Shown here in pieces: positions 16,085-47,963 of a stretch of 64,000 nt of DNA. The notes beneath the pieces are model-generated. The model was not told the origin of the DNA. It saw nothing but the letters and a program-made list of their open reading frames with translations, and ran no database searches. A program made the translations under genes and the position numbers. How positions within the stretch are numbered: the stretch's first letter is position 1; every line of letters begins with the position of its first letter. Source of the DNA: Actinomycetes bacterium (GTDB lineage Bacteria; Actinomycetota; Acidimicrobiia; Acidimicrobiales; Acidimicrobiaceae); contig JAKAZZ010000004.1 of the NCBI GenBank assembly GCA_021826315.1, forward strand, positions 1-64,000, read 5' to 3'.

Positions 16085-17125
16085 TTATGGCTTTGCCAAT
16101 GACCCTAGCGAGAGAAAGTCCGCATAGAAAAGACCCATGGCAAGGGCGGTAAAGACTCCGGCGATCATCCAAAACCTTACGATTACCGTAGTCTCTGGCC
16201 AACCCATCAACTCAAAGTGATGGTGAAGTGGGGCCATCTTGAATACTCGGCGACCAAACGCACGAAAACTAATGACTTGAATCACGACTGAAAGAGTTAC
16301 TACGACAAAGAGGCCCGCCAAGATAGGCAACCATAGATCAAGGCCCATAAGCAGAGTCGCTGCCCCTAGAGCGGCGCCAATCGCTAGCGAACCGGTATCA
16401 CCCATGAATATCTTCGCTGGAGCGGCATTCCACCACAGGAAGCCAGCCAATCCTCCGACCATACCAACTACTACTATAGCTAGATCCAAAGAGCCATTGA
16501 TGTGGTAGACCGAGTAGTGGCGAAACTCCCAGTAGCCAACGATAGTCAAGGCACCAAAGGCAAATATCGCCGAACCACCAGCCAATCCATCTAGTCCATC
16601 GGTGAGGTTTACAGCATTAGACGATCCAATCACCACAACGATGGCAAAGAGAATCCAAAGTGGGGTGGGCACAGCAATAGTAAAGCCACCACTTCGAACG
16701 AAGTTGATCGTCGAGGGAACGTGGAGCACGTAGTGCGCTACGAGTGCGAAGGCTGCGGCAACAATTATTTGGCCACTGATCTTGGCGCTCTTTGTCAGAC
16801 CAAGGGACCGCTCCTTGCGAACCTTAATATAGTCATCAAGAAATCCAACGAGTCCCGCCCCAAACGTTACGCCGATGAGTGTTAGGGCTTGCTTGGAGAT
16901 CGGCACGCCGAGGTTCGCATGTGCCGCTGCGTATCCCAAGACTAAACCTACAAAGATCGCAATTCCTCCCATCGTCGGGGTTCCTGCTTTGGTGACGTGG
17001 CGCTTAGGACCGTCTTCTCGAATCTGCTGCCCGATTCGATATGAACGCAAAATCTTAATCAAATAGTTTGTGGAGGAGACCGCTACTATGAAGGCAATAG
17101 CGCTTGACACGAGAATCGCTATCAC
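16085..17125 (-). CDS. mraY: Phospho-N-acetylmuramoyl-pentapeptide-transferase MraY
   Basis: 346 residues, about ten transmembrane helices. Makes lipid I from UDP-MurNAc-pentapeptide and undecaprenyl phosphate. The family motifs are GPKRHVTKAGTPTMGGIAIF, the aspartate-rich GFLDDYIKVRK, NAVNLTDGLDGLAGG, KIFMGDTGSLAIGAALG and MAPLHHHFELMGWPE. Its start overlaps the murE stop (ATGA). In most bacteria murF lies between murE and mraY; here there is no room for it. Confidence 0.97.
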   Translation of the reverse strand: MIAILVSSAIAFIVAVSSTNYLIKILRSYRIGQQIREDGPKRHVTKAGTPTMGGIAIFVGLVLGYAAAHANLGVPISKQALTLIGVTFGAGLVGFLDDYIKVRKERSLGLTKSAKISGQIIVAAAFALVAHYVLHVPSTINFVRSGGFTIAVPTPLWILFAIVVVIGSSNAVNLTDGLDGLAGGSAIFAFGALTIVGYWEFRHYSVYHINGSLDLAIVVVGMVGGLAGFLWWNAAPAKIFMGDTGSLAIGAALGAATLLMGLDLWLPILAGLFVVVTLSVVIQVISFRAFGRRVFKMAPLHHHFELMGWPETTVIVRFWMIAGVFTALAMGLFYADFLSLGSLAKP

Positions 17126-18582
17126 TTGCCCAGTGCCTCCATCGCTACCTCAAAGTCGCTAAAGGGCATCGTCTGATCCATAATTACCTGGTACCTTTCG
17201 TGACCCTTGCCAGCTATCAAAACGATGTCATGTGGATTGGCCAGAGCAATAGCACGCTCTATCGCGCTTCTGCGGTCTAATTCAATCTCAAATTCAAGGT
17301 CTTTAGAAAAGCCCGAGACGATTGCAGTAACAATCTCCTTTGGATCTTCGCTTCTGGGGTTATCGTTAGTAACGATAGCAAAGTCGGCCAACCTAGCAAC
17401 TACCTCGCCCATTAAGTGGCGCTTTGTAATATCGCGATTTCCGCCTGCTCCAAAGACGATTATCACCCTACCACCATCGATCAAGGTAGCACGCAAGGCC
17501 TTCAAAACCTGTTCGAGGGCGTCAGGTGAATGGGCATAGTCAACGTAAACCCTGACATTATCGGAGACTCCTACGAGCTGAAGCCGCCCATCAACGCCTT
17601 TGAAACTTCGAATCGCTCTTGAAATGTCTTGGAGGCGATAGCCGAGCTGCTGCACCGCAAAGATTGCAGCAAGCAGATTGGAGAGGTTGTGCTCACCAAA
17701 GAGAGAGGCAAAGAATCTCACACCATTTAACTCGAAGTAAGTACCACTTGAAGTAAAGGTCAAAAGATTCACATCAGTTATCGAAAAGGAGATCAAAGGT
17801 ATCTCCGCGGATATGATTAACCTCCGGCCAAAACTACTATCCCTATTTACGACTCCAAAGCGGGAGCGCCCAGACCTGAAGAGATTCTCCTTCGCCCTAA
17901 AGTAATTTTCGATAGTACCGTGATAGTCCAAGTGATCAGGAGTTAAATTCGTAAAAATTGCGATGTCAAAGAGAAGATCGGCAAGGCGACCCTCTTCTAA
18001 GGCGATCGAACTTACCTCCATCGCACAGCTTGTCTTCCCCTCTTTGGCTAGGTGGTCCAGGCGACGAAAGAGTTCTGGGGCCTCTGGAGTAGTGAGATTG
18101 CCATTCAACGTACCGATAACGCCACAGGGGCTACCAAGTTCGCTTAGTATATGTCCGATCAAGTGGGTGACAGTTGTCTTGCCGTTGGTACCAGTAACCC
18201 CAATAAGGGCAACTTTAGAATTTAGGTCACCGTAGAACCTTGATACCAATTTGGCCAAAACCTCCCGAGAGAGCTCCGGGACCGAAATTATGCCCATGCC
18301 CGCGACATCCGTAGACGAGGTAATGGCAGCTACCGCTCCATTTGCAAACGCATCTCCAATGAACTTAGACCCGCTACTCATGCGACCATCGAGAGCAACA
18401 AAGAGGTCTCCTGCCACGACTCTACGAGAGTCGATCGAGATTCCTGCGACATCAATATCGCCACCACTAGAACTAAGCGCGCTCCCAAATCCTGCGAGCA
18501 ATTCACTTAAAAAAATGATGTCCTCCTTGATCCGGGGTAACGTCGCACGTGTTCTAGAACTCAAGGCTAATCGCCTACTCAT
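17122..18582 (-). CDS. murE: UDP-N-acetylmuramoyl-tripeptide synthetase MurE (meso-DAP type)
   Basis: 486 residues. Domain 1 has ISIDSRRVVAGDLFVAL, then the ATP loop GVTGTNGKTTVTHLI, AMEVSSIALEEGR and NLTPDHLDYHGT. In the C-terminal domain VTNDNPRSEDP is the DNPR motif that selects meso-diaminopimelate rather than lysine. This agrees with the dap operon at 36-41 kb. I considered MurF, but the DNPR motif and overall pattern are those of MurE. The gene overlaps mraY and lies 63 bases after ftsI. Confidence 0.96.
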   Translation of the reverse strand: MSRRLALSSRTRATLPRIKEDIIFLSELLAGFGSALSSSGGDIDVAGISIDSRRVVAGDLFVALDGRMSSGSKFIGDAFANGAVAAITSSTDVAGMGIISVPELSREVLAKLVSRFYGDLNSKVALIGVTGTNGKTTVTHLIGHILSELGSPCGVIGTLNGNLTTPEAPELFRRLDHLAKEGKTSCAMEVSSIALEEGRLADLLFDIAIFTNLTPDHLDYHGTIENYFRAKENLFRSGRSRFGVVNRDSSFGRRLIISAEIPLISFSITDVNLLTFTSSGTYFELNGVRFFASLFGEHNLSNLLAAIFAVQQLGYRLQDISRAIRSFKGVDGRLQLVGVSDNVRVYVDYAHSPDALEQVLKALRATLIDGGRVIIVFGAGGNRDITKRHLMGEVVARLADFAIVTNDNPRSEDPKEIVTAIVSGFSKDLEFEIELDRRSAIERAIALANPHDIVLIAGKGHERYQVIMDQTMPFSDFEVAMEALGK

Positions 18583-36044: not shown

Positions 36045-37127
36045 TCAAAGTGAGATGATCAATCGTCGTAGGACTTGGTGCGCCTCTTCTATCTCACTAC
36101 GTGAAATAACTTCATCCTTAGTATGAGCGAGTTCTGGATCGCCAGGGCCGTAGTTTACAGCCGCGATGCCTCGTTCATAAAAAAAAGCCACGTCGGTCCA
36201 TCCAAGCTTCGACCTAACGCCTCTTACGCCGCTACGATTCAGTGCGCCGATTATCGGGTTACCAAGAGAAGGTGGGGCCGAAGGCGCGATGTCCACAACC
36301 TCAATGGCGTCACCCAAATCGGCCTCTAACTGTTGTTCAATAAGGGCGATGTACCTCGAGATAGTGGCTTCATCGCTTTCAGATGGTGCGTAACGAAGGT
36401 TGATGGTAACTTCGGCGTAATCGGGAACTACATTTCCCGCGATTCCACCTTCGATTTTGGTAGTTACTAAAGCAGGACGATACGTCACTCCTCCGAAGTC
36501 AACGGCGCTGTGTTCTAGCTCGTCCAAAAAAGAAAGGAGTTGTCCGCATCGCTCGATGGCATTTATACCCATCCAAGCTCTGGCGCTATGCGATCTCTTA
36601 CCCCTTATTCCAACTTTGAATCGGGCGGTTCCCTGACAACCAGCTTCAATGTAGCCGCCGGTTGGTTCGAGCAAAACAGCGCCAGCGCCCTTCAAGAGAT
36701 TTGGATCCGCCCTTTCAACTTCTAGAAGACCGGAAAAGCTCCTTGCTATCTCTTCGGATGCGTAGAAGATAAAACGGAGATTCTCTCTGTCACAAAAGTC
36801 ATTAGCAAGGCGGATCATGACTGCCACTCCAGCCTTCATATCAACGACGCCCAGACCATAGATTAGGTCATCTTCCACGATTGCTCGAACTTCACCGAAT
36901 GCAGGAACCGTATCAAGGTGGCCAGCTAGTATCGTTCCCTTTGCGGGATCATAATTTCGCGAGGTAGCGACCACATTGTTACCGACTCGGACAACCTCAT
37001 AACATCCGATATCTTCGAGCTTTTGGGCGACATAGTCACATATCAAACCTTCATTGGTTGAGATCGACTCGATATCAACCAATTCTTTCGTCGTTTCGAA
37101 GAGAAAATCTTCGATTGAAGGTGCCAT
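36045..37127 (-). CDS. dapE: Succinyl-diaminopimelate desuccinylase DapE
   Basis: 360 residues, zinc M20 peptidase family. Removes succinate from N-succinyl-L,L-DAP. Metal and catalytic motifs are LAGHLDTVPA, GLGVVDMKAGVAVM, FYASEEIA (the general-base Glu), LLEPTGGYIEAGCQGT, and the C-terminal NYGPGDPELAHTKDE with the last His ligand. The length and order agree with actinobacterial DapE. Its start abuts the dapD stop without spacing, and it ends the dap operon. Confidence 0.93.
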   Translation of the reverse strand: MAPSIEDFLFETTKELVDIESISTNEGLICDYVAQKLEDIGCYEVVRVGNNVVATSRNYDPAKGTILAGHLDTVPAFGEVRAIVEDDLIYGLGVVDMKAGVAVMIRLANDFCDRENLRFIFYASEEIARSFSGLLEVERADPNLLKGAGAVLLEPTGGYIEAGCQGTARFKVGIRGKRSHSARAWMGINAIERCGQLLSFLDELEHSAVDFGGVTYRPALVTTKIEGGIAGNVVPDYAEVTINLRYAPSESDEATISRYIALIEQQLEADLGDAIEVVDIAPSAPPSLGNPIIGALNRSGVRGVRSKLGWTDVAFFYERGIAAVNYGPGDPELAHTKDEVISRSEIEEAHQVLRRLIISL

Positions 37128-37952
37128 TTAAATTGCTATTCCGCTCTCGCGAAGGAAGGAGTTGAGCGCGGTCTTATCGTGCCTCTCTCCCTCGTTGAGC
37201 CGCTTTATAATCAATACCGCTGGGATATAGAAGTCGCCACCGGGATAGCTTCGCTTCCGCGAACCTGCTATTGCAACCGACCATGGAGGAATGTATCCCC
37301 GGGAGACTTCTTCGCCAGTCTCGGCATCGATAACTGGGATTGAAGGATTCAATATCACTCCGGCAGCGACAACCGCACCGGTGCCGACGCGTGCTCCTTC
37401 GGTGATCATGGCCCTAGAACCTATGAATGCCTCATCTTCGATCACAACAGGCGCGGCTTGTGGAGGCTCCAAAACTCCACCAATACCGACACCGCCCGAG
37501 AGGTGCACTCGTCGCCCAATCTGAGCGCAAGAACCTACGGTCGCCCAAGTATCGACCATGGTGTCTTCCTCAACGCGGGCACCGATGTTGACGTAACTTG
37601 GCATCATCGTTACACCTGGTGCAAGAAATGAACCCCACCTAGCCGAGGCACCAGGAACGACACGGACGCCAAGCGTGTCATACCCTCTCTTGAGGCGAAT
37701 TTTATCGCGGTACTCGAACGGATAGGACTCCATGGTTGTGGCTCCAGAAGCACGAAAGAGGAGGAGGATCGCTTGTTTGATCCACTCGTTTACAACAACG
37801 TCGCCGGATTCGGCAACGTATGCCACTCGAAGTGACCCGTCGTCCAATCCATCGATCACATTGTGGATAACCGTGATGATGTCAGGATCATGAAAATCGA
37901 CCGTTCCCCGGTTTTCCCAAATATCAACTATCTTTTGCGCTAAATCTGCCAT
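37128..37952 (-). CDS. dapD: 2,3,4,5-tetrahydropyridine-2,6-dicarboxylate N-succinyltransferase DapD
   Basis: 274 residues, the same length as E. coli DapD. Left-handed parallel beta-helix acyltransferase; succinylates tetrahydrodipicolinate. Diagnostic segments are RVVPGASARWGSFLAPGV, MPSYVNIGARVEEDTMVDTW, GSCAQIGRRVHLSGGVGIGG and VLEPPQAAPVVIED. These follow the E. coli-type DapD pattern rather than the longer (about 317-residue) mycobacterial type, so horizontal acquisition is possible. Followed by dapE, preceded by dapC. Confidence 0.95.
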   Translation of the reverse strand: MADLAQKIVDIWENRGTVDFHDPDIITVIHNVIDGLDDGSLRVAYVAESGDVVVNEWIKQAILLLFRASGATTMESYPFEYRDKIRLKRGYDTLGVRVVPGASARWGSFLAPGVTMMPSYVNIGARVEEDTMVDTWATVGSCAQIGRRVHLSGGVGIGGVLEPPQAAPVVIEDEAFIGSRAMITEGARVGTGAVVAAGVILNPSIPVIDAETGEEVSRGYIPPWSVAIAGSRKRSYPGGDFYIPAVLIIKRLNEGERHDKTALNSFLRESGIAI

Positions 37953-38015
37953 TTATAAGCTCACTAACTCTATCTATATTCAAAATTCCCTTACGGCTAA
38001 AGCCAAAGGGGAACG

Positions 38016-39107
38016 CTAAAGCGCCTGTAGCACCCTTTCAAGTGCATAGTCAGATGCCACCGCCGCCACTCTTACGAAGTTTGCATGACTTGAGGAGTAG
38101 AACTCTCCTGGCGAGACGATAATCCCAGTTCGCTTGGCAATCGAAGCCGCGATCTCGAAGCCGTCGGCCTGATCCTTCGAGTCAAACCAGAGGTAGAAGC
38201 CACCGTCTGGCATCTTCGGTTCGTATCCCAGAATCGAAAATATCTCAATAAGCCGTTCAAGGCGTCCCCGATATCTTTTGGCTTCTTCCTCAACGTGTTC
38301 ATCGTCGTCAAGAAGGCGAGCTCCCAACTCCTGAAATGGACCAGGGATCATGAGCCCGGCATGCTTTCTAACTTCACTAAGGTAATGAACCAGCTCGCGA
38401 TCTCCAGCATAAAAACCAACCCGTCCGCCGGCGAAGTTCGACCTCTTTGAGAGCGAATGCACAGCGAGTAGTCGATCCGTACCCTCACTTAATGCACTGC
38501 ATCTGGGACTTGACCAGGTATATTCCACGTAGCATTCGTCTGAGACCACAACAAAGTCATAGGCTTTGGCAACCTGCAATACGTTTTCGATTGAATAGAT
38601 CTCACCGGTAGGGTTCGAAGGTGAATTTGTCCAAACAAGCAACGTTCGCTCTAGTAGATCCTTTGGAACCGATTCGATCTGCAATTTACCATCTTCAATG
38701 GCGACTGGAAAGTACTTTAGTCCGCTCAGAATTGCACCCATAGCATACGTTGGATACGACACTTCAGGATATAGGACGACGTCACGCTCAGGTTGTCTTA
38801 GGTGGAGGTACCAAGGTGTAGATGCAACAAACTCCTTTGAACCTACGCACGCCGCCACCTCTTCAAGGGAAAGTTCTACGCCAAGTCGTCGAGACATCCA
38901 TCCGATTGCCGCACTTCGAAGTCGATTGGAGCCAATTGAGGTGGGATAACCATTTGCAAGGTCAAAGGAGAGTTGACGAAACTTCTCCGGCAGCGGATCA
39001 ACTGGGGTACCGATCGAGAGGTCCAACAGCTCTAGTCCATGCTCGCCAGGTAAGGATCTCACTTCCCGGAGACGATCATGGGGATAGGGAGGCGGGGTAA
39101 AGGACAT
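38016..39107 (-). CDS. dapC: Succinyldiaminopimelate aminotransferase DapC
   Basis: 363 residues, class I/II PLP aminotransferase of the actinobacterial DapC type. It begins FTPPPYPHDRLREVRSL, then LLDLSIGTPVDPLPEKF. Key sites are WTNSPSNPTGEIYS, VVSDECYVEYTW, the PLP lysine in VHSLSKRSNFAGGRVGF, and a Pro/Asp-rich MPDGGFYLWFD near the end. It converts N-succinyl-2-amino-6-ketopimelate with glutamate to N-succinyl-L,L-DAP. It lies with dapD, dapE, dapF. Confidence 0.9.
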   Translation of the reverse strand: MSFTPPPYPHDRLREVRSLPGEHGLELLDLSIGTPVDPLPEKFRQLSFDLANGYPTSIGSNRLRSAAIGWMSRRLGVELSLEEVAACVGSKEFVASTPWYLHLRQPERDVVLYPEVSYPTYAMGAILSGLKYFPVAIEDGKLQIESVPKDLLERTLLVWTNSPSNPTGEIYSIENVLQVAKAYDFVVVSDECYVEYTWSSPRCSALSEGTDRLLAVHSLSKRSNFAGGRVGFYAGDRELVHYLSEVRKHAGLMIPGPFQELGARLLDDDEHVEEEAKRYRGRLERLIEIFSILGYEPKMPDGGFYLWFDSKDQADGFEIAASIAKRTGIIVSPGEFYSSSHANFVRVAAVASDYALERVLQAL

Positions 39108-39132
39108 GTCTCCTCTTCAAAATTTGCTTTTA

Positions 39133-40404
39133 CTAACCTATAATGTAGTCTTCGAAGTAGGCGATGCTAGTAGTGTCAAGGCGTGCAGTTACCTCGTAGG
39201 AATCTTCCTTGGAGAGGATTGATAAGACTTCACCTTCAACCTGGAGGCGCGCTAACACGTCACCATATTCGTAACCGATCTCAAGCACAAGCACCTTGGT
39301 ACCTGCACGAATAAATGCAGCTACAGCATCTCTTAGTCCATCAATATTGAGATTTTGGAGCGCTGAGACGAAGATAGCACCGGGATACCTCTCCTCAAGT
39401 GCCTCGCGGTCGATCTCTTTATCTGCCTTGTTGAAGACCAGTAATTCTCGCAACTTTCCAGCACCAATCTCATCTAAGACTTCGCGCACAGCTCGAATCT
39501 GCGAATCAGGATCGCTCGCAGATGCGTCCACTACATGGATTAGAAAGTCGGACTCAGTCACCACTTCGAGTGTCGATCGAAACGACTCGATTAATTGATG
39601 TGGCAACTTCTTAATGAACCCGACCGTGTCGGATAGAAGGAAGGCCTCTCCACCGGGGAGAGCTACCCTACGGGTGCGAGTATCCAACGTGGCGAAGAGG
39701 CGATCCTCTACGAGAACGTCGGAGTGCGCCAAAGCGTTAAGGAGTGACGACTTCCCCGCGTTGGTATAACCAACCAACGAAGCGGTCTTATTACGCGATC
39801 TGCTTCGTGCGGAAGCTTGGACCCTTCGAGTTGAAGAGTAAGTCTCTAACTGCCGCTTAAGACGTGATATCTTGTCCTGAATCCGCCTCCGGTCTTCTTC
39901 AAGTTTGGTTTCGCCTGGACCACGGGTTCCGATACGTCCGACCTGTTGCGAGAGTTGCCCTCCCTTTCCCCTGAGACGGGGAAGTCGATAACTCAACAGA
40001 GCTAGCTCAACTTGAGCCTTTCCCTCCATGCTCTTGGCATTCTGCGCAAAGATATCGAGGATCAAGGCCGTACGGTCTATAGCCGTTCTACCTAAGACCT
40101 TTTCGAGGTTTCTCTGTTGCGCAGGCGTTAATTCGTCGTCAAAGATGACGGTATCGCAATCTGTCGCGTACGAAAGTTCGCGAAGTTCTTCGACTTTGCC
40201 CCTACCAATAAAGTACGCGGGGTCTGGCGAGCCCATCCTCTGAGTCAACCTGCCTACCACGTCGGCTCCAGCAGTATCGACGAGGAGCGCAAGTTCGTCC
40301 AGCGACTCATCGACCTCTTCTTGGGATGTATCGGGGAGTACCGCTCCAACTACAACAATCTTTTCGCGAAAGTGACGCGCAATTAACGTCAATGTATCCG
40401 CCAT
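39133..40404 (-). CDS. hflX: Ribosome-splitting GTPase HflX
   Basis: 423 residues. N-terminal HflX domain with DTAGADVVGRLTQ and PDPAYFIGRGKVEEL, then LILDIFAQNAKSMEGKAQVELA and GRIGTRGPGETKLEEDRR. The G domain has G1 GYTNAGKSSLLNAL, DTRTRRVALP, G3 DTVGFIKKLP, and G4 NKADKE. It rescues or splits stalled 70S ribosomes. hflX normally follows dapF in Actinobacteria, which it does, at 10 bases. A dap aminotransferase gene follows after 25 bases. Confidence 0.96.
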   Translation of the reverse strand: MADTLTLIARHFREKIVVVGAVLPDTSQEEVDESLDELALLVDTAGADVVGRLTQRMGSPDPAYFIGRGKVEELRELSYATDCDTVIFDDELTPAQQRNLEKVLGRTAIDRTALILDIFAQNAKSMEGKAQVELALLSYRLPRLRGKGGQLSQQVGRIGTRGPGETKLEEDRRRIQDKISRLKRQLETYSSTRRVQASARSRSRNKTASLVGYTNAGKSSLLNALAHSDVLVEDRLFATLDTRTRRVALPGGEAFLLSDTVGFIKKLPHQLIESFRSTLEVVTESDFLIHVVDASASDPDSQIRAVREVLDEIGAGKLRELLVFNKADKEIDREALEERYPGAIFVSALQNLNIDGLRDAVAAFIRAGTKVLVLEIGYEYGDVLARLQVEGEVLSILSKEDSYEVTARLDTTSIAYFEDYIIG

Positions 40405-40414
40405 CCCCTCTCAT

Positions 40415-41272
40415 CTAAAGTGGCCAAAGCGCCTCAGCTGGAGCAACTTTAGCTACGAAAGAGGCTGGTCCTTCGAGGTAGAACTCGCCCCTTTCGCCAT
40501 TGTAGCTCACAGAAAGGTCTCCGCCCGGATTTTTAATCGAGGCCGCCACCAGCTCCTCACCTCCATCAAGGCTACGTAATACCGCTCCAACCGCGGTCGA
40601 CCCAGAGCCACAGGCCATCGTAAAACCTGCGCCTCTCTCGAAGACAATCATCTCAACGTCACCGTCAAGAAGCGAAGTACCACTCTTGGGAGTAACCCAC
40701 TCTACATTTACTCCGCCGGAATACGAAAGCTGTAGCTCCCGGGCTTCGATGGCAATCTCATCCTTGAACGATGCTAAATCAGCAACTGGTTCATCGACCA
40801 CATATACCAAGTGAGGATTTCCAACATCTACTAGATAGGCACTCCAGTTGCGACCAGATACTTTGCTCGCATAGTCATTTGAAGGAGTAACGGCGACCTT
40901 GCCCATCGAAGAGCTAATTCGAGCAGAGTCTCCATTTATTGCATGGATCACCACTCCCCTAACACCAGCGTCGGTCGTTACGTCAAATTGTCGTTCTCGA
41001 GCGAGATGCATGCGCCGAATGTGAAATCCTAGGCACCTAAGACCGTTTCCAGAGATCGCAGCCCTTGTCCCATCACTGTTATACAGATGCATTGTAGGAG
41101 TACCATCGAGGGTTAGCATAATTAAGCCGTCAGCTCCGACCCCGTAGTTGCGATCGCAGAGCTTCTTCGCCCCCTCGCTAAATTCAAGCTTCGGTACTTC
41201 CTCAACTTCCGCTACAAGGAAATCGTTTCCGACACCCTGATATTTATAGAGCCAATTACCATCGCTATTCAC
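40415..41272 (-). CDS. dapF: Diaminopimelate epimerase DapF with Ser in place of a catalytic Cys
   Basis: 285 residues from GTG 41270-41272. Epimerises L,L-DAP to meso-DAP by a two-base mechanism. It has KYQGVGNDFLVAE, GVGADGL, YNSDGTRAAISGNGLRC, VGNPHLVYVVD, and ERGAGFTMACGSGSTAVG. The second catalytic cysteine is present (Cys221) but the first is Ser74 (SGNG instead of CGNG); the codon TCT is at 41051-41053. Start is supported by the dapF N-terminus. The gene heads the dap operon. Confidence 0.93.
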   Translation of the reverse strand: MNSDGNWLYKYQGVGNDFLVAEVEEVPKLEFSEGAKKLCDRNYGVGADGLIMLTLDGTPTMHLYNSDGTRAAISGNGLRCLGFHIRRMHLARERQFDVTTDAGVRGVVIHAINGDSARISSSMGKVAVTPSNDYASKVSGRNWSAYLVDVGNPHLVYVVDEPVADLASFKDEIAIEARELQLSYSGGVNVEWVTPKSGTSLLDGDVEMIVFERGAGFTMACGSGSTAVGAVLRSLDGGEELVAASIKNPGGDLSVSYNGERGEFYLEGPASFVAKVAPAEALWPL

Positions 41273-41679
41273 CTATCTAAGGCTAGCAACGCGATAGCAG
41301 TGATCTCTCTTCGATGACATATGATCGGAAGATGCGATCCGTTTAATAAAGGAAAACACTTTGCGAAGATTAGAAAGACAACTTTAAGGTAATATTAAAC
41401 TTAATTTTGGCTCACTTTTACCTTCGGCGATTTATATATAGTGAAGAAAAGGCAACGACATTCAACTTCCAAGGAGCGACGCACCCCAGAGTCTCCGCTA
41501 GGAAGGTCGTCGATGGCACCCCCATCAGCCTTTTTAGGATTGCTTCCCCGTTGCAACATACGCAGCGGGGAAGATTTATATGGCAACACATTGAAGATCT
41601 CCAACCAGCGCCACTGATTCATACCATACCGGAATAGGTCCCTCCGCGTTTGCGGCAACTGATAGAGAGCTTTGTTTGC
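41273..41679. other. Divergent spacer between dapF and the metallophosphoesterase gene
   Basis: About 400 bases with no supported gene. At 41543-41573 CTTCCCCG pairs with CGGGGAAG around a 15-base loop, followed on the plus strand by ATTTATATGG: a hairpin in the probable leader of the metallophosphoesterase transcript. The promoters of both genes should be here; 41340-41410 is A+T-rich. Confidence 0.4.
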
Positions 41680-43191
41680 ATGCGATTTGAGCGCTCAGAT
41701 ACTATAGGTAGCGGAAGTCAAGGAAACTTTTACGCATATCGCATCTCGGACAAGAAAAAGGGTGACTTTGAGGAAACCGCTCACTCAAATAAGCCGAGAA
41801 TTCGAATACTTCAGATCACCGATATTCAACTTAGCGATCCATCATCGCCAAATCGATTTGAATTCGTCAACAAACTCATCGACATCGAGGCGGCACGCCC
41901 CTTTATCCCCGGTCATCGCCCTGGTGAATTGCTAACTCCACACGCCGCTATCGCCGCAGTCGAAAAAGCCAACTCAATTCACGAACAACGCGAAGTCCAA
42001 GTTGCTCTCTTTACCGGAGACATCATCGATTCCGCGCAAAGAAATGAGGCTGAGGCCGTCTTAGCGATAATCGAAGGGGGTGAGTTAGATCCTCAGACAA
42101 TCTTTGGAACCTACGAAGGGGTTCAGAGCGCGACGATTGACGATCCCTTTTACTACAAACCCGATGCTTCTAGCGACCTAATGGGAGAAATGTACGGATT
42201 CCCCAGGATCAAAGGCTACCTAGATGCAGCGTTAGGAAGACAAAAAAGCCCGGGACTACAAATGCCTTGGCTCATGGCCAATGGCAACCACGAAGTGCTC
42301 GTCCAAGGGATGGGAGCGAAGAGTAAAGCCGCTAACAACTATGCGCAAGGTGGACAAAAACCAACTGGCTTTTCCACCACCGACATTGACTTCGGTTCGC
42401 TCGCGAAAAGGTACGAAGGCGATGCGTCAGCCCTTCAGCCCATCGTCACAACAACCTCAGTTACACCCCTTGACAGTCGTCGCCTGCTAGCAGACGGAGA
42501 GTTCGGTGCGATGGTTCGAGACACAAAGGGACTCCCGGTCGGCCATGGCCTATCGAATTATGAATTCGGCGAGATGAATTATTCCACCTACTTTGCCGAA
42601 GGGGACTTCGTAGTTATCGCTATCGATACGGCAAATAGAGCAGGTGGAGCTCGCGGTGTTATTACAGAATATTGCTTTCGAACGCTCGAAGAACACTTGG
42701 ATTTGGCAAGAGCGACATACCCCACGGCACTAATCATCGTCATAAGCCACCACAGCCTCTCCGAGATCAACTTTGATGAAAGTTCCGTTACCCTAGGGGT
42801 AGTTGAAACATTGATGAGTTCAAACCGGGTCTTCCTCTGGCTCTCCGGTCATACACACAGAGATAGAGTTATTTCGAATAGCTCCAACCCAGCCCGCACA
42901 TTCGTCGAAGTTACGAGTGCTTCAATTGCAGATTGGCCATCCACCATCCGCGAAATTGAAATCTTTGACGACGTCTCCAGCGGAAAGGTAACTTTGTACC
43001 TTCGAAGTCACACTGTCGCCGAACATGTAAGGTACATCAGCTACGGTGAGGTCGTTACCGGGGAGATAAGCGAACTTTTATCGATTCACAGCGCAATCAT
43101 CGCAAATACGGCGGCGATTTACGGATTAGATGTTCAAGGAACCGAGCTCGAAGAGATAAAGATAGAGTGCGATCGCGAGCGCTACCTGTAG
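41680..43191 (+). CDS. Metallophosphoesterase (calcineurin-like), 503 residues
   Basis: 503 residues from ATG 41680 (TTG 41650 would add 10). Metallophosphoesterase core in order: LQITDIQLSD, ALFTGDIIDSAQRNE, LMANGNHEVL, VISHHSLSE and LWLSGHTHRDRV. The usual first motif D-x-H reads D-I-Q, while GDxxD, GNHE and GHTH are kept. A 200-residue insert lies between GDIID and the C-terminal histidines. It resembles a long actinobacterial metallophosphoesterase group. No signal peptide or membrane span. Substrate unknown; no operon partner. Confidence 0.82.
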   Translation: MRFERSDTIGSGSQGNFYAYRISDKKKGDFEETAHSNKPRIRILQITDIQLSDPSSPNRFEFVNKLIDIEAARPFIPGHRPGELLTPHAAIAAVEKANSIHEQREVQVALFTGDIIDSAQRNEAEAVLAIIEGGELDPQTIFGTYEGVQSATIDDPFYYKPDASSDLMGEMYGFPRIKGYLDAALGRQKSPGLQMPWLMANGNHEVLVQGMGAKSKAANNYAQGGQKPTGFSTTDIDFGSLAKRYEGDASALQPIVTTTSVTPLDSRRLLADGEFGAMVRDTKGLPVGHGLSNYEFGEMNYSTYFAEGDFVVIAIDTANRAGGARGVITEYCFRTLEEHLDLARATYPTALIIVISHHSLSEINFDESSVTLGVVETLMSSNRVFLWLSGHTHRDRVISNSSNPARTFVEVTSASIADWPSTIREIEIFDDVSSGKVTLYLRSHTVAEHVRYISYGEVVTGEISELLSIHSAIIANTAAIYGLDVQGTELEEIKIECDRERYL

Positions 43192-43301: not shown

Positions 43302-46300
43302 CTATGCGATAGCAATACCATCGCCTCCGAAGTTCTTTACTTGATACATAAGGTGATCCGCGATACGAAGGAGGGCGTCAGGCTCATCTTGGCCTGGATA
43401 GGAGATCGAAACTCCAACCGATGCAGAGACCAATACCCTTTCATGCGTTGAAGTTACGATTGGAACCTTGATCGACTTCAAGATTCGATCCACAACGCGC
43501 CTTGCATCTTCGCTATCAGCGATGTCACCGAGGATGCAGACGAACTCATCACCCCCAATTCTTGCCACAGTATCAACTTCGCGGAGGCAATTTTCGATTC
43601 TCCTCGCCACCGCTATTAATATCTCATCTCCAATAACATGGCCGAAGGTGTCGTTTACTGGTTTGAAGTCATCTAAGTCAAAGAATGCAAGTGCAGTGAA
43701 CTTTCCGGACCGCTTATTTCGATTCAATTGATCCTGCGTCTTTGCCATCAATAGGGTACGATTCGGCAAGTTAGTAAGAGGATCGTGGTGAGCCATGAAG
43801 TCGAGTTTCTGCTGGGTCTCCATGATCTCTGTAATGTCGGTATACATTATGACGTATAGGTCGATCGATCCACCTCGACCCGCTAGGGCAGAAATGCTAG
43901 CGATCGCAGCGAACTCACTACCATCCTTGCGTGGAACCCTTATGGGACCCGACCAATCCTTGCCAAGAGTAATACGCTGAAAAACCTCTCCATCTTCGAG
44001 GATCGAGGCGTACTTGCATGTGACTGATGGACCGGCATCACCCAATAAATCCGCATACTCAAATCCAGTCATGCGGGTAAATGCTGGGTTTATATCGATA
44101 ATCTTTCGATCAGAGTCGAGGACGATAATTGCTTCGGAGCTAATCTTGAAGACCGTTGAACCCTGGCGTAGCTGCTTGTCAGACTCAATCTTGGTCGTAA
44201 GATCAGTACCCACCGTGACAAAGAAGTTAGCAGTACCAAGGTCATCGTAGATTGCTCGATTTTGCCATTCAATAATTCGACGTTCGCCATCGCGTCTGGT
44301 CCAAGCCGCATGCGAGTGACTAATAACTTGCCCTTCGAGCGCGCTCTCGAACCATTCAATCGCCCCTTTGCGTCCTTCGTCAGAGAAGAAATTCAATGTG
44401 GTGAGCGGAACGCTCTGCAACTCCTGCAGAGACTTTCCAGTGAAATCCTCCACAGTATCGTTACAGTAGACTACCCTTCCACTTCGATCAAGGACGATAA
44501 TCATCTGAGGAACAACATCTAAAATCTGTGAGGCGAACTCAAGGTCGGTTTCAATCTGGTGCAACGCCTTGCTCTTTGACGTGACGTCGATGCCGTAGGT
44601 TACAACAGCTAGATCTGAGTCCTCATTATCTTCAGCAATTCTCTTGTAGTGCATCTCCATGAGTCGACGACTACCGTCCCGATGGTGGTGCCAAATCTCA
44701 TAAACCCCACCGATTCCATTCCTAAGCGTATCGACGAAGGCACCAACCACCATCTTGTGGTCTTCGGGTGCTACCCACTTTCTCCACACCTCTGTCTGAT
44801 AAATGACGTCAATACTCGAATAGCCAGTCAACTCTTCAGCTTGTCGATTAAAACGAACGATTCTTCCGTTGGAGTCGAGAACCATAATCGCTGCGGAGAC
44901 CGAATTGAGAACTGCACGGTTGAGCTTTCGTTCGCGCCACAGCGCAGCATTATAAACATCTTCATCAGGTCGGACTAGGAGGAGATAGCCAAGGGTTAGA
45001 CTTTCTGGATCAAGCGGGGCTATAAAGATTCGAAATGCCCGGCCAACTCCCGTATCGTCGTAGACAACAACGATCGTGTCGTTGGTTTTGCCATACTCGC
45101 TTTCAAGAATTGCCCTAAGTTGGCTTCCGCCTTTTAGTCTGCCTAAATCTCTGAATTTAATGGTGACGTCCGATGAGACATCAAGGCCGAGGCGTCGCCT
45201 GGTCTGTTGATCCAATCCAGAGATGACACCGCTAATTCTGTCATAACGAAAGAAGATCGAGTCAGCTCGAGAAGTGATCGAATCCAACATTCTTCTCTCG
45301 GCCTCGAACCTATCTGGGCGCTGATAAGCAACAACAGCACGCGAGATGAACTCGGCCGTGGCGTCGAGAAGTATCCGATGGAATTCGGTCGGATCCTGCT
45401 CTTGATAGCCAGAGATGGAAAATGTTCCGATGACTTCGCCGCCAACGGCTCTGATGGGCGCAGACCAACAGGTAGCAAGTCCTAAGTTATGGGCAATGTT
45501 GAGTGCATCTTTCCATCGCGGATCGTATGCGATCGAAGAAACTAGGGTACTCACATTGTGCTTAACCGCAAACGAACAAGAGCCATAGGTGTCGCCCACC
45601 GGCACATCAGTGAGAAGAAACCATCGTTCGCGATCGAGAGAAGGGCAAGCCGCCACCGAAATGGTGCCGATTTCGCCTTTCAGCATCACTGCGGCGATCG
45701 AATTGGGTACGATTGCTTCAACTCGTTTACAGACCACGTCATAAAAGTCGCCAATAGCACCATTTGAGTAAAAGGCATTGAAGCCATCGAAGAGAAGATC
45801 CACGATGTCGCGAGCTTGAAAGGTGCCTATGCCGCCGTGGCCAACAACCCTTGAGTCCCAGTCGCTCAAGTCCTGACGCCTATTAGCTGCACTCGAGGTA
45901 GCTCCCCTAGAAATGCGGTCAGAAAAGACCGAGATCAATTCAGCTTCAAGCGCTACGAATGCGTAAGCCCCATGGGACGCCTCACGTTCGTTGGTAAACT
46001 TTTCAATAATCGATCGACACTTGTCATCGAGGAGGCTTCCTAGGCCGTTTGTAACCTCTCGAATAATTTCACTCGTAGAGATATTGGAGACGTAGGACCC
46101 AAGAGCTCCGATCCGTCGCGACCAGCGCCGCAAAAAGGCGATTGCGCCTAGCGGCGTCGATACATTATTTGAGATTGGATAAGGCTGGTACGAATTAACC
46201 CACTCGATGACAGCATCAAACGTAATTGGTGCTGAAATACCGTATCCCTGACCAAAGTCGGCACCGACTAGGGAGACCGCTTCAATCAATGCGTCGCGCT

Positions 46301-47963
46301 CCAACCCCTCTACAACTACCTTCATCCCTAGATCGTGGGCAAGGTCAGTCAAGTGAGCAACGACGTCTATCGAACTGACCGGATCTGTCGCGCTCCTAAT
46401 GAGGCCTTGATCGATCTTCACTTCGAAGAATCCAAAACTTTCAAGGCGGAGTAGAGAAGAATAACCGGCTCCTAGGTCGTCTTGCGCTAAGTGGACCCTC
46501 ATCTCTGCGAAGCTCGTGAGATTGGAGGCCGTTGCCGTACTTACCGAGTAAAGGTCCTCCTCTTCAGTAAGTTCAAGGGTTACAACTCCAGGAGAGAGGT
46601 CAAAGTCACGCAGTGCTGCCTTGACAACTTCAACGTACCGAGGATCACGAAGGCCCTGCGATGGAAGGTTGATATTGATCCCGCAGTATATCCCCCTTGC
46701 CCTCCATTGACAGATAGACGTAAACCCCTGTCGCACCCCTTCTTTAAATAGATAGAAGAGATCTTCGGAGCCAAGTGCTGGAAAGAATTCCGCCGGCGAG
46801 ATTAGGCGACCATCATCGTCACGTAGGCGCGCTAGCGCCTCTACCTTTGTGAACTCACCCGTAACCAGGTTAATAATCGGTTGGTAGACCATCTCAAGGG
46901 CTCCACCATAGAGGCGAGTCCTAATCGCGCTCCTCTCAGAGAGACTTATAGCTCTACCGCCATCGAGGCGAGGAAGCGACGATGATACAACGTGTGCTAT
47001 GTGTTCTAAGGCGCGACGCCGCCTTGAAATAGTAAAAAAACCTGGCGTAGATGCGTATACAGTTAGAACCGCAACCGTCTCGCCGTGGATGTTAGCAATC
47101 GGAAGAGCTGCAATAGATCGAATACCAATGCCTCGAAGAAAGCGGCTCCACGGCCGCATCCCGACATCCATCTCTATCGAATCACATATCTCTACCCGTC
47201 CGCTGCGCCAAGCACGAGAAGCCACATGATCGCCGCTAGCCGATGATCGCGCTATTGATACCTTTGGCAACTCTCCATTTTCCACATAATTGAGAAACTT
47301 TTTATCGTGATCGCCTGAAGAGTATTGATATTGAAAGAGGCCACCCTTATCGGGGCGAGAAAAGTCTGCATTTACGACGCCGTAGAGCTTACAGACGACA
47401 TTTACAAGCGTTCGAACGAGATCTACTGAAGTGGTGGTATTCGCCACCGCGGAGTCAATCTCTTGGTTGAGCTGGTCTATCTGTTCATCTAGCTCTTCTT
47501 CGGACTCTAGGACAGCTTGAGTTATTGCATCGAGGCGCTGAAGTGCACACTCGAGATACCTTGTCACTACCTCCCGGGGAAGCTTTGACGAGTCAATTCT
47601 TTCAGTCAGTATCGCTGCGAACTTTCTATTCGTCTTCAACATCCATATCGGCCGTATTCCCACCCGCGCGTGAACGCGACCTAGTTGCGCTAAAACGTCA
47701 ATCGTCTCTCCGAGTGAGAGCGTCGGAGTCAATAGCTGGGTCGCAAACCGACGATGAAAGATGCGCAATGTTGTAACGTCACTTGCAAGAATGAGTGCGA
47801 AGTACGAGGAGGCCTCATCTTCAATTGCGAAGGTGCCGTAGAAGTATTCGAGGTAGTCGTCGACAGCGGCAGTGATCAGTTCCTCGGGAACCTCCCTGGA
47901 CCGTTCGTCCCACTCCGATAGAGTTACGTAAGCACTCAAAATCAACCTCGAAGAGCTAACCAA
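43302..47963 (-). CDS. Globin-GAF-EAL-GAF-PAS-PAS-PAS-GGDEF c-di-GMP signalling protein
   Basis: 1553 residues, no membrane span. Domains: globin-coupled-sensor-like N-terminus (about 25-155, with His98 in LGRVHARVGIRPIW as the probable heme ligand), GAF (about 177-330), EAL phosphodiesterase (344-590; E375-A-L, N in GININLPS, ELTEEE, QDDLGAGYSS, KIDQG, VEGLE), a helical stretch, second GAF (about 737-878), a divergent region (about 890-1005), PAS (1015-1128, 1142-1258, 1268-1382), and GGDEF (1388-1553; G1470-GDEF with RxxD inhibitory site 1461-1464). Key residues of both catalytic domains are present. The start is uncertain: TTG 47963, or TTG 47939, which has GAGG 7 bases before it. The likely role is oxygen or redox-linked control of c-di-GMP. 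Confidence 0.9.
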   Translation of the reverse strand: MVSSSRLILSAYVTLSEWDERSREVPEELITAAVDDYLEYFYGTFAIEDEASSYFALILASDVTTLRIFHRRFATQLLTPTLSLGETIDVLAQLGRVHARVGIRPIWMLKTNRKFAAILTERIDSSKLPREVVTRYLECALQRLDAITQAVLESEEELDEQIDQLNQEIDSAVANTTTSVDLVRTLVNVVCKLYGVVNADFSRPDKGGLFQYQYSSGDHDKKFLNYVENGELPKVSIARSSASGDHVASRAWRSGRVEICDSIEMDVGMRPWSRFLRGIGIRSIAALPIANIHGETVAVLTVYASTPGFFTISRRRRALEHIAHVVSSSLPRLDGGRAISLSERSAIRTRLYGGALEMVYQPIINLVTGEFTKVEALARLRDDDGRLISPAEFFPALGSEDLFYLFKEGVRQGFTSICQWRARGIYCGININLPSQGLRDPRYVEVVKAALRDFDLSPGVVTLELTEEEDLYSVSTATASNLTSFAEMRVHLAQDDLGAGYSSLLRLESFGFFEVKIDQGLIRSATDPVSSIDVVAHLTDLAHDLGMKVVVEGLERDALIEAVSLVGADFGQGYGISAPITFDAVIEWVNSYQPYPISNNVSTPLGAIAFLRRWSRRIGALGSYVSNISTSEIIREVTNGLGSLLDDKCRSIIEKFTNEREASHGAYAFVALEAELISVFSDRISRGATSSAANRRQDLSDWDSRVVGHGGIGTFQARDIVDLLFDGFNAFYSNGAIGDFYDVVCKRVEAIVPNSIAAVMLKGEIGTISVAACPSLDRERWFLLTDVPVGDTYGSCSFAVKHNVSTLVSSIAYDPRWKDALNIAHNLGLATCWSAPIRAVGGEVIGTFSISGYQEQDPTEFHRILLDATAEFISRAVVAYQRPDRFEAERRMLDSITSRADSIFFRYDRISGVISGLDQQTRRRLGLDVSSDVTIKFRDLGRLKGGSQLRAILESEYGKTNDTIVVVYDDTGVGRAFRIFIAPLDPESLTLGYLLLVRPDEDVYNAALWRERKLNRAVLNSVSAAIMVLDSNGRIVRFNRQAEELTGYSSIDVIYQTEVWRKWVAPEDHKMVVGAFVDTLRNGIGGVYEIWHHHRDGSRRLMEMHYKRIAEDNEDSDLAVVTYGIDVTSKSKALHQIETDLEFASQILDVVPQMIIVLDRSGRVVYCNDTVEDFTGKSLQELQSVPLTTLNFFSDEGRKGAIEWFESALEGQVISHSHAAWTRRDGERRIIEWQNRAIYDDLGTANFFVTVGTDLTTKIESDKQLRQGSTVFKISSEAIIVLDSDRKIIDINPAFTRMTGFEYADLLGDAGPSVTCKYASILEDGEVFQRITLGKDWSGPIRVPRKDGSEFAAIASISALAGRGGSIDLYVIMYTDITEIMETQQKLDFMAHHDPLTNLPNRTLLMAKTQDQLNRNKRSGKFTALAFFDLDDFKPVNDTFGHVIGDEILIAVARRIENCLREVDTVARIGGDEFVCILGDIADSEDARRVVDRILKSIKVPIVTSTHERVLVSASVGVSISYPGQDEPDALLRIADHLMYQVKNFGGDGIAIA

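Follow-up and report, generated by a model that had tools for sequence, protein, structure and literature searches.

The genome studied here encodes a diaminopimelate (DAP) epimerase, DapF, in which a serine (Ser74) stands in place of the first catalytic cysteine, while the second catalytic cysteine (Cys221) is retained. We estimate at roughly 0.7 the probability that this gene is the organism's real and only DAP epimerase and that its product is an active enzyme, which would work with a serine/cysteine acid-base pair. DapF is the textbook two-cysteine epimerase, its product meso-DAP is needed for lysine and for the cell wall, and it is a long-standing antibacterial target, both of its cysteines being alkylated by aziDAP-type inhibitors. 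The Ser/Cys form is a new variant of DapF, and our search of the open-access literature (subscription journals lay outside it) found no report of a natural serine-type DapF. A natural and ancient Ser/Cys form, together with Ser/Ser forms found elsewhere, would reveal how the enzyme compensates for a lost thiolate base. If the proposed reading is true, inhibitors directed at the first cysteine are predicted to have no effect on these bacteria, whose DapF should also escape oxidative inactivation by disulfide formation, and real DapFs are being missed by cysteine-based motif annotation.

Serine at the first catalytic position

The gene lies in a 64,000-nucleotide stretch of DNA from a member of the Acidimicrobiaceae, analyzed as a whole and called the window here (Table 1). 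Re-reading the sequence bore out the earlier sequence-only reading in its open reading frame (ORF), strand, and positions, in the SGNG motif with its TCT codon, and in the intact second motif, ACGSG. Ser74 is encoded within YNSDGTRAAISGNGLRC, in the protein context YNSDGTRAAI-S74-GNGLRC, and Cys221 occurs in the context FTMA-C221-GSG. The protein matches the NCBIfam profile TIGR00652 at 170.2 bits (cut-off, 114.65; residues 9 to 275 aligned) and is also matched by Pfam PF01678. In the best alignments, the first catalytic cysteine of solved DapFs (Cys73 in Haemophilus influenzae and Cys75 in Anabaena) aligns to Ser74 without a gap or a shifted cysteine, and the DAP-binding residues N16, N65, N76, N152, N189, E212, R213, and G222 are common to the window protein and the cysteine-type DapFs. 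The window protein therefore shares with known DapFs (TIGR00652/PF01678; H. influenzae, Corynebacterium glutamicum, and Anabaena) its fold, length, substrate-site residues, second cysteine, and dap neighborhood, but carries serine where they have the first catalytic cysteine and so does not fit the DapF signature of PROSITE, as given in PMC8225329, which calls for cysteine at that position.

Artifactual origins of the serine were considered as well. A sequencing error is ruled out because genomes of the same genus also encode serine at this codon, with TCT in three genomes (the window's own and two others) and AGC or AGT in the other sampled ones. Misalignment, or a displaced catalytic cysteine, is ruled out by the gap-free alignments to solved DapFs; Cys80, at the end of SGNGLRC, is not such a substitute since it is also present in Cys/Cys DapFs and is missing from several serine-type DapFs. 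The serine-for-cysteine swap is real, and it is not local.

An AF2 model of the window protein (four sequences; pLDDT, 71) has the two-domain DapF-like fold, and its closest solved structures are DapFs, with Z scores up to 19.5; the engineered H. influenzae DapF C73S (PDB 2q9h) is among the matches. Ser74 is placed directly before helix H75-87 and Cys221 before helix H222-235, and the catalytic residues of solved DapFs likewise sit at helix N termini (PMC12039745). As the model deviates from solved DapFs by an rmsd of 5 to 6 Å, its domain orientation is unreliable and active-site distances are not readable from it.

Genomic context and the need for meso-DAP

Table 1. Features of the dapF region and murE in the window
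Feature	Position	Strand	Evidence and remarks
murE, with DNPRSE motif	17122..18582	-	NF001126, 467 bits; sequence
dapE, succinyl-DAP desuccinylase	36045..37127	-	TIGR01900, 372 bits; gives LL-DAP, the DapF substrate
dapD, tetrahydrodipicolinate N-succinyltransferase	37128..37952	-	NF008808, 304 bits
dapC-like succinyl-DAP aminotransferase	38016..39107	-	TIGR03539, 290 bits, below the cut-off of 355.65
hflX GTPase	39133..40404	-	TIGR03156, 434 bits; directly downstream of dapF
dapF, diaminopimelate epimerase, Ser74/Cys221 variant	40415..41272	-	TIGR00652, 170 bits; PF01678; 285 aa, GTG start
Cys221 codon TGT, second catalytic cysteine, retained	40610..40612	-	Sequence; conserved in alignments
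Ser74 codon TCT, first catalytic position	41051..41053	-	Sequence; alignment to solved DapFs

The gene is tied to DAP biosynthesis by its surroundings, with the dapC-like gene, dapD, and dapE following dapF by way of hflX, and in a synteny comparison of 62 related loci, 61 had hflX next to dapF. The sequence-only reading had spoken of a complete dap operon; the window has dapF, the dapC-like gene, dapD, and dapE around hflX, and a complete operon is more than these four genes demonstrate. Similarly, it had taken MurE to carry a meso-DAP motif, and DNPRSE is indeed present. However, the DNPR motif alone does not distinguish LL-DAP from meso-DAP and is no proof of the latter, so the need for meso-DAP is better based on lysA, whose product has meso-DAP as its substrate. 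This gene was found in the window's genome; of the 42 family genomes, 40 carry it, 39 of them with scores above the cut-off.

A profile search found no second DapF in the window's assembly (89.9% complete), and no extra copies occur in the family genomes searched, where DapF is single. A meso-DAP dehydrogenase (Ddh, TIGR01921), another conceivable source of meso-DAP, had no match over the cut-off in 82 genomes (42 from the family and 40 others), in which the search returned weak partial matches only, and a Ddh bypass was set aside on this basis.

Also in this region are a 513-aa ORF with metallophosphoesterase-like motifs (GDI, GNHE, and SGHTH), which adjoins dapF on the opposite strand (41650 to 43191, plus strand), and a 1,553-aa ORF (43302 to 47963, minus strand) that looks like a multi-sensor signaling protein with EAL-like and GGDEF segments, the GGDEF motif itself being visible.

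Distribution and history of the serine state

Whole genomes of Actinomycetota, sampled at the level of family, order, class, and phylum, supplied the DapF loci, from which the proteins were extracted by profile and aligned. Within the order, 160 of the 161 sampled DapFs have serine at the first site and cysteine at the second. In the rest of the class Acidimicrobiia, 17 of the 29 other families sampled have serine and 12 have cysteine, with no family mixing the two; these added 31 further serine sequences and a single threonine (L255, in a serine family). Across these 192 sequences, the first site is never alanine or glycine, and the second cysteine is kept in every serine-type DapF sampled from the order and from the other Acidimicrobiia. 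Given this spread over the order and 17 further families, the serine state characterizes much of the class and is not peculiar to this genome, and the alignment of relatives that the sequence-only reading had proposed thus comes out in favor of conservation.

The sole Cys/Cys sequence in the order (L164/L252, genome G242) forms a long branch, falls below the DapF cut-off, and has an odd second motif, SCASGAVAA; it is possibly transferred or a non-orthologous racemase. The reverse swap, cysteine at the first site and serine at the second, was seen once only, in a member of a cysteine family (L031, G234). A pattern match in genome G463 (L138) was discarded as it had no DapF profile match, and L034, with its long-branch placement, was set aside in interpretation.

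In a DapF tree of 258 rows made without columns 74 and 221, five changes suffice to explain the first site, which points to about one origin of the serine state, early in Acidimicrobiia and kept since. Within the serine group, the tree implies that the codon changed about 14 times from AGY to TCN or back, a count that gene-tree errors may inflate, and it shows no reversion to cysteine among well-placed sequences. By single steps, the route between AGY and TCN passes through a cysteine or threonine codon, and a single base change turns either TCY or AGY into TGY. About 14 switches without a secure return to cysteine indicate that serine itself is under selection, the direction of this signal being clear. 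Column 74 is the only well-filled alignment column that fully separates serine-type from cysteine-type DapFs, whereas another 28 positions reach 95% conservation or more in each group. No compensating residue was evident: group-specific residues occur in columns 63 (Y to L), 155, 248, 274, and 276, but they look like lineage differences, and none is an obvious new base.

Relative to locus L032 (compared over window positions 36045 to 41272), DapF is conserved far less than its neighbors: it shows 79% identity, whereas HflX reaches 97%, DapC 84%, and DapD, over the part covered, about 90%. The comparison of DapF and HflX divergence between the serine and cysteine groups had only four cysteine loci with HflX in reach. 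The faster divergence of DapF than of HflX leaves room for some relaxed constraint.

A cultured relative links the serine state to known wall chemistry. Genome G014, which belongs to the window's own family and is taken as the complete genome of Acidimicrobium ferrooxidans ICP, has one DapF, of the Ser/Cys type (L061), and the murein of this species contains meso-DAP (PMC3035218). DapF is also of the serine type (L108) in genome G027, taken as Ilumatobacter coccineum (PMC3910706), and the listed type strains of Iamiaceae have meso-DAP walls, except Actinomarinicola, which has dd-DAP (PMC12263773). Because a meso-DAP wall occurs in a relative whose sole DapF is of the serine type, serine probably works as a catalytic residue in this order. 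Between the two options that the sequence-only reading had left side by side, a working serine is thus favored over another enzyme supplying meso-DAP, on the basis of conservation, codon switching, single copy, the lack of a Ddh match over the cut-off, and the wall of this relative.

Proposed mechanism and alternative explanations

Studied DapFs use a thiolate to abstract the alpha-proton and a thiol to deliver a proton to the other face; L,L-aziDAP bonds to the first cysteine and D,L-aziDAP to the second (PMC12039745). An analogy to the L,L-aziDAP complexes would orient Ser74 toward the alpha-proton of the L center of LL-DAP and Cys221 toward the D side. The conversion of LL-DAP to meso-DAP would then keep the familiar exchange of protons on two sides, with Ser74/Cys221 replacing the Cys/Cys pair, Ser74 acting as the general base for LL-DAP (or as a relay through an activated hydroxyl) and Cys221 as the general acid. 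The change would have been fixed once, early in Acidimicrobiia, and then maintained. The substitution, its conservation, the single gene copy, and the otherwise intact active site can be read from the sequences themselves; we infer the activity of the enzyme and the assignment of residues to protons.

The natural Ser/Cys pair has a precedent in the same fold class. In the crystallized 4-hydroxyproline epimerase 4HypE B9JQV3 (Avi_0518), a member of the proline racemase superfamily and thus of another family with another substrate, Ser93 serves the trans-to-cis and Cys236 the cis-to-trans direction (PMC4113996), which favors a working Ser74/Cys221 pair. Proline racemase relatives have a proposed catalytic-serine motif with asparagine at +3 (PMC4113996); the window DapF departs from it, with N76 at +2 in SGNG, as cysteine-type DapFs also have. 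The E. coli aspartate/glutamate racemase EcL-DER likewise has a natural hydroxyl/thiol pair, with threonine for one catalytic cysteine, and is cofactor independent, but it belongs to another fold subclass and is reported to be irreversible, L to D (PMC8142540). A counterpart with the same substitution, H. influenzae C73S (2q9h), is in the same enzyme family but man-made, whereas the serine of the window DapF is natural and long conserved.

What speaks against this mechanism is that, by the same analogy, serine would sit on the side that deprotonates LL-DAP, chemically the harder role. Catalysis is hindered in Cys-to-Ser mutants of DapF (PMC12039745), and as the sequence-only reading had stated, serine substitution lowers activity strongly, with less than 0.1% left in mutants of the Cys/Cys enzyme PddB and a similarly faint activity reported for Mycobacterium tuberculosis DapF (PMC8225329). 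Some compensation must therefore exist. These traces of activity also lend themselves to another explanation, in which a slow DapF is tolerated because little activity suffices, be it through low flux demand, abundant protein, or mostly LL-DAP walls with meso-DAP used only for lysine. The divergence of DapF relative to HflX would fit, as would the slow growth common among members of the order. Since cysteine is one base away, however, a poor enzyme should have reverted, yet only one cysteine sequence of doubtful orthology occurs among 161, and the meso-DAP walls of A. ferrooxidans (PMC3035218) and of the listed Iamiaceae type strains save Actinomarinicola (PMC12263773) speak against it as well. 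We regard a merely tolerated enzyme as unlikely. Slightly less probable still is a mechanism in which Cys221 by itself both removes the proton and gives it back, or draws on water at the other face, with Ser74 only binding. The retention of Cys221 in all sampled serine-type DapFs of the order and of the other Acidimicrobiia is compatible with such one-base catalysis, but the strict serine (one threonine), never alanine or glycine, over 192 sequences suggests a needed hydroxyl, and water is expelled from the closed DapF site (PMC12039745).

A different reaction altogether, on another amino acid or as a dehydratase of the trans-3-hydroxyproline dehydratase kind, with an unrecognized enzyme making meso-DAP, appears very improbable. 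Dehydratase activity does go with Cys-to-Ser/Thr changes in proline racemase relatives (PMC4113996, PMC8142540), but the TIGR00652 score well over the cut-off, the nearby dapC-like gene, dapD, and dapE, the 61/62 synteny with hflX, the single copy, and the conservation of N16, N65, N152, N189, E212, and R213 all argue for DapF. A selective advantage of serine, which is compatible with an active Ser74/Cys221 enzyme, could lie in protection from oxidation, as no inactivating disulfide can form between the catalytic residues. In C. glutamicum DapF, a disulfide links the two catalytic cysteines, and the enzyme loses activity when exposed to H2O2 (PMC5296763); moreover, the first cysteine is usually the one lost, a loss that would be enough. 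However, the serine state spans an entire order and many families without an obvious common oxidative habitat, so this advantage is possible but doubtful.

Serine-type DapFs elsewhere in Actinomycetota

Outside the class, serine at the first site with the second cysteine kept occurs in families f98, f106, f111, f113, and f140, and serine at both sites occurs in f106, f117, f128, and f124/f127. Because other genomes of f98, f106, and f111 have cysteine, the distribution suggests that serine arose more than once in the phylum. In f124/f127, from another Actinomycetota class, seven genomes (G583, G495, G544, G524, G641, G505, and G563) have single-copy Ser/Ser DapFs (L245 to L251); the DapF of the related genome G651 (L134/L244) is of the Ser/Cys type, and the sister family f92 is Cys/Cys. 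If serine is the base for LL-DAP in Acidimicrobiia and the Ser/Ser enzyme of f124/f127 works with no catalytic cysteine, thiols would not be essential for cofactor-independent DAP epimerization, a generalization that we consider less likely than not.

Scattered Ser/Cys DapFs were also seen outside the class (L310 and L311 [f111], L308 and L309 [f113], and L314 and L315), some of them in families that also include Cys/Cys members. Genome G553 has two DapF-like genes (L306 and L307), both lacking the first cysteine; one is of the Ser/Cys and the other of the Ser/Ser type.
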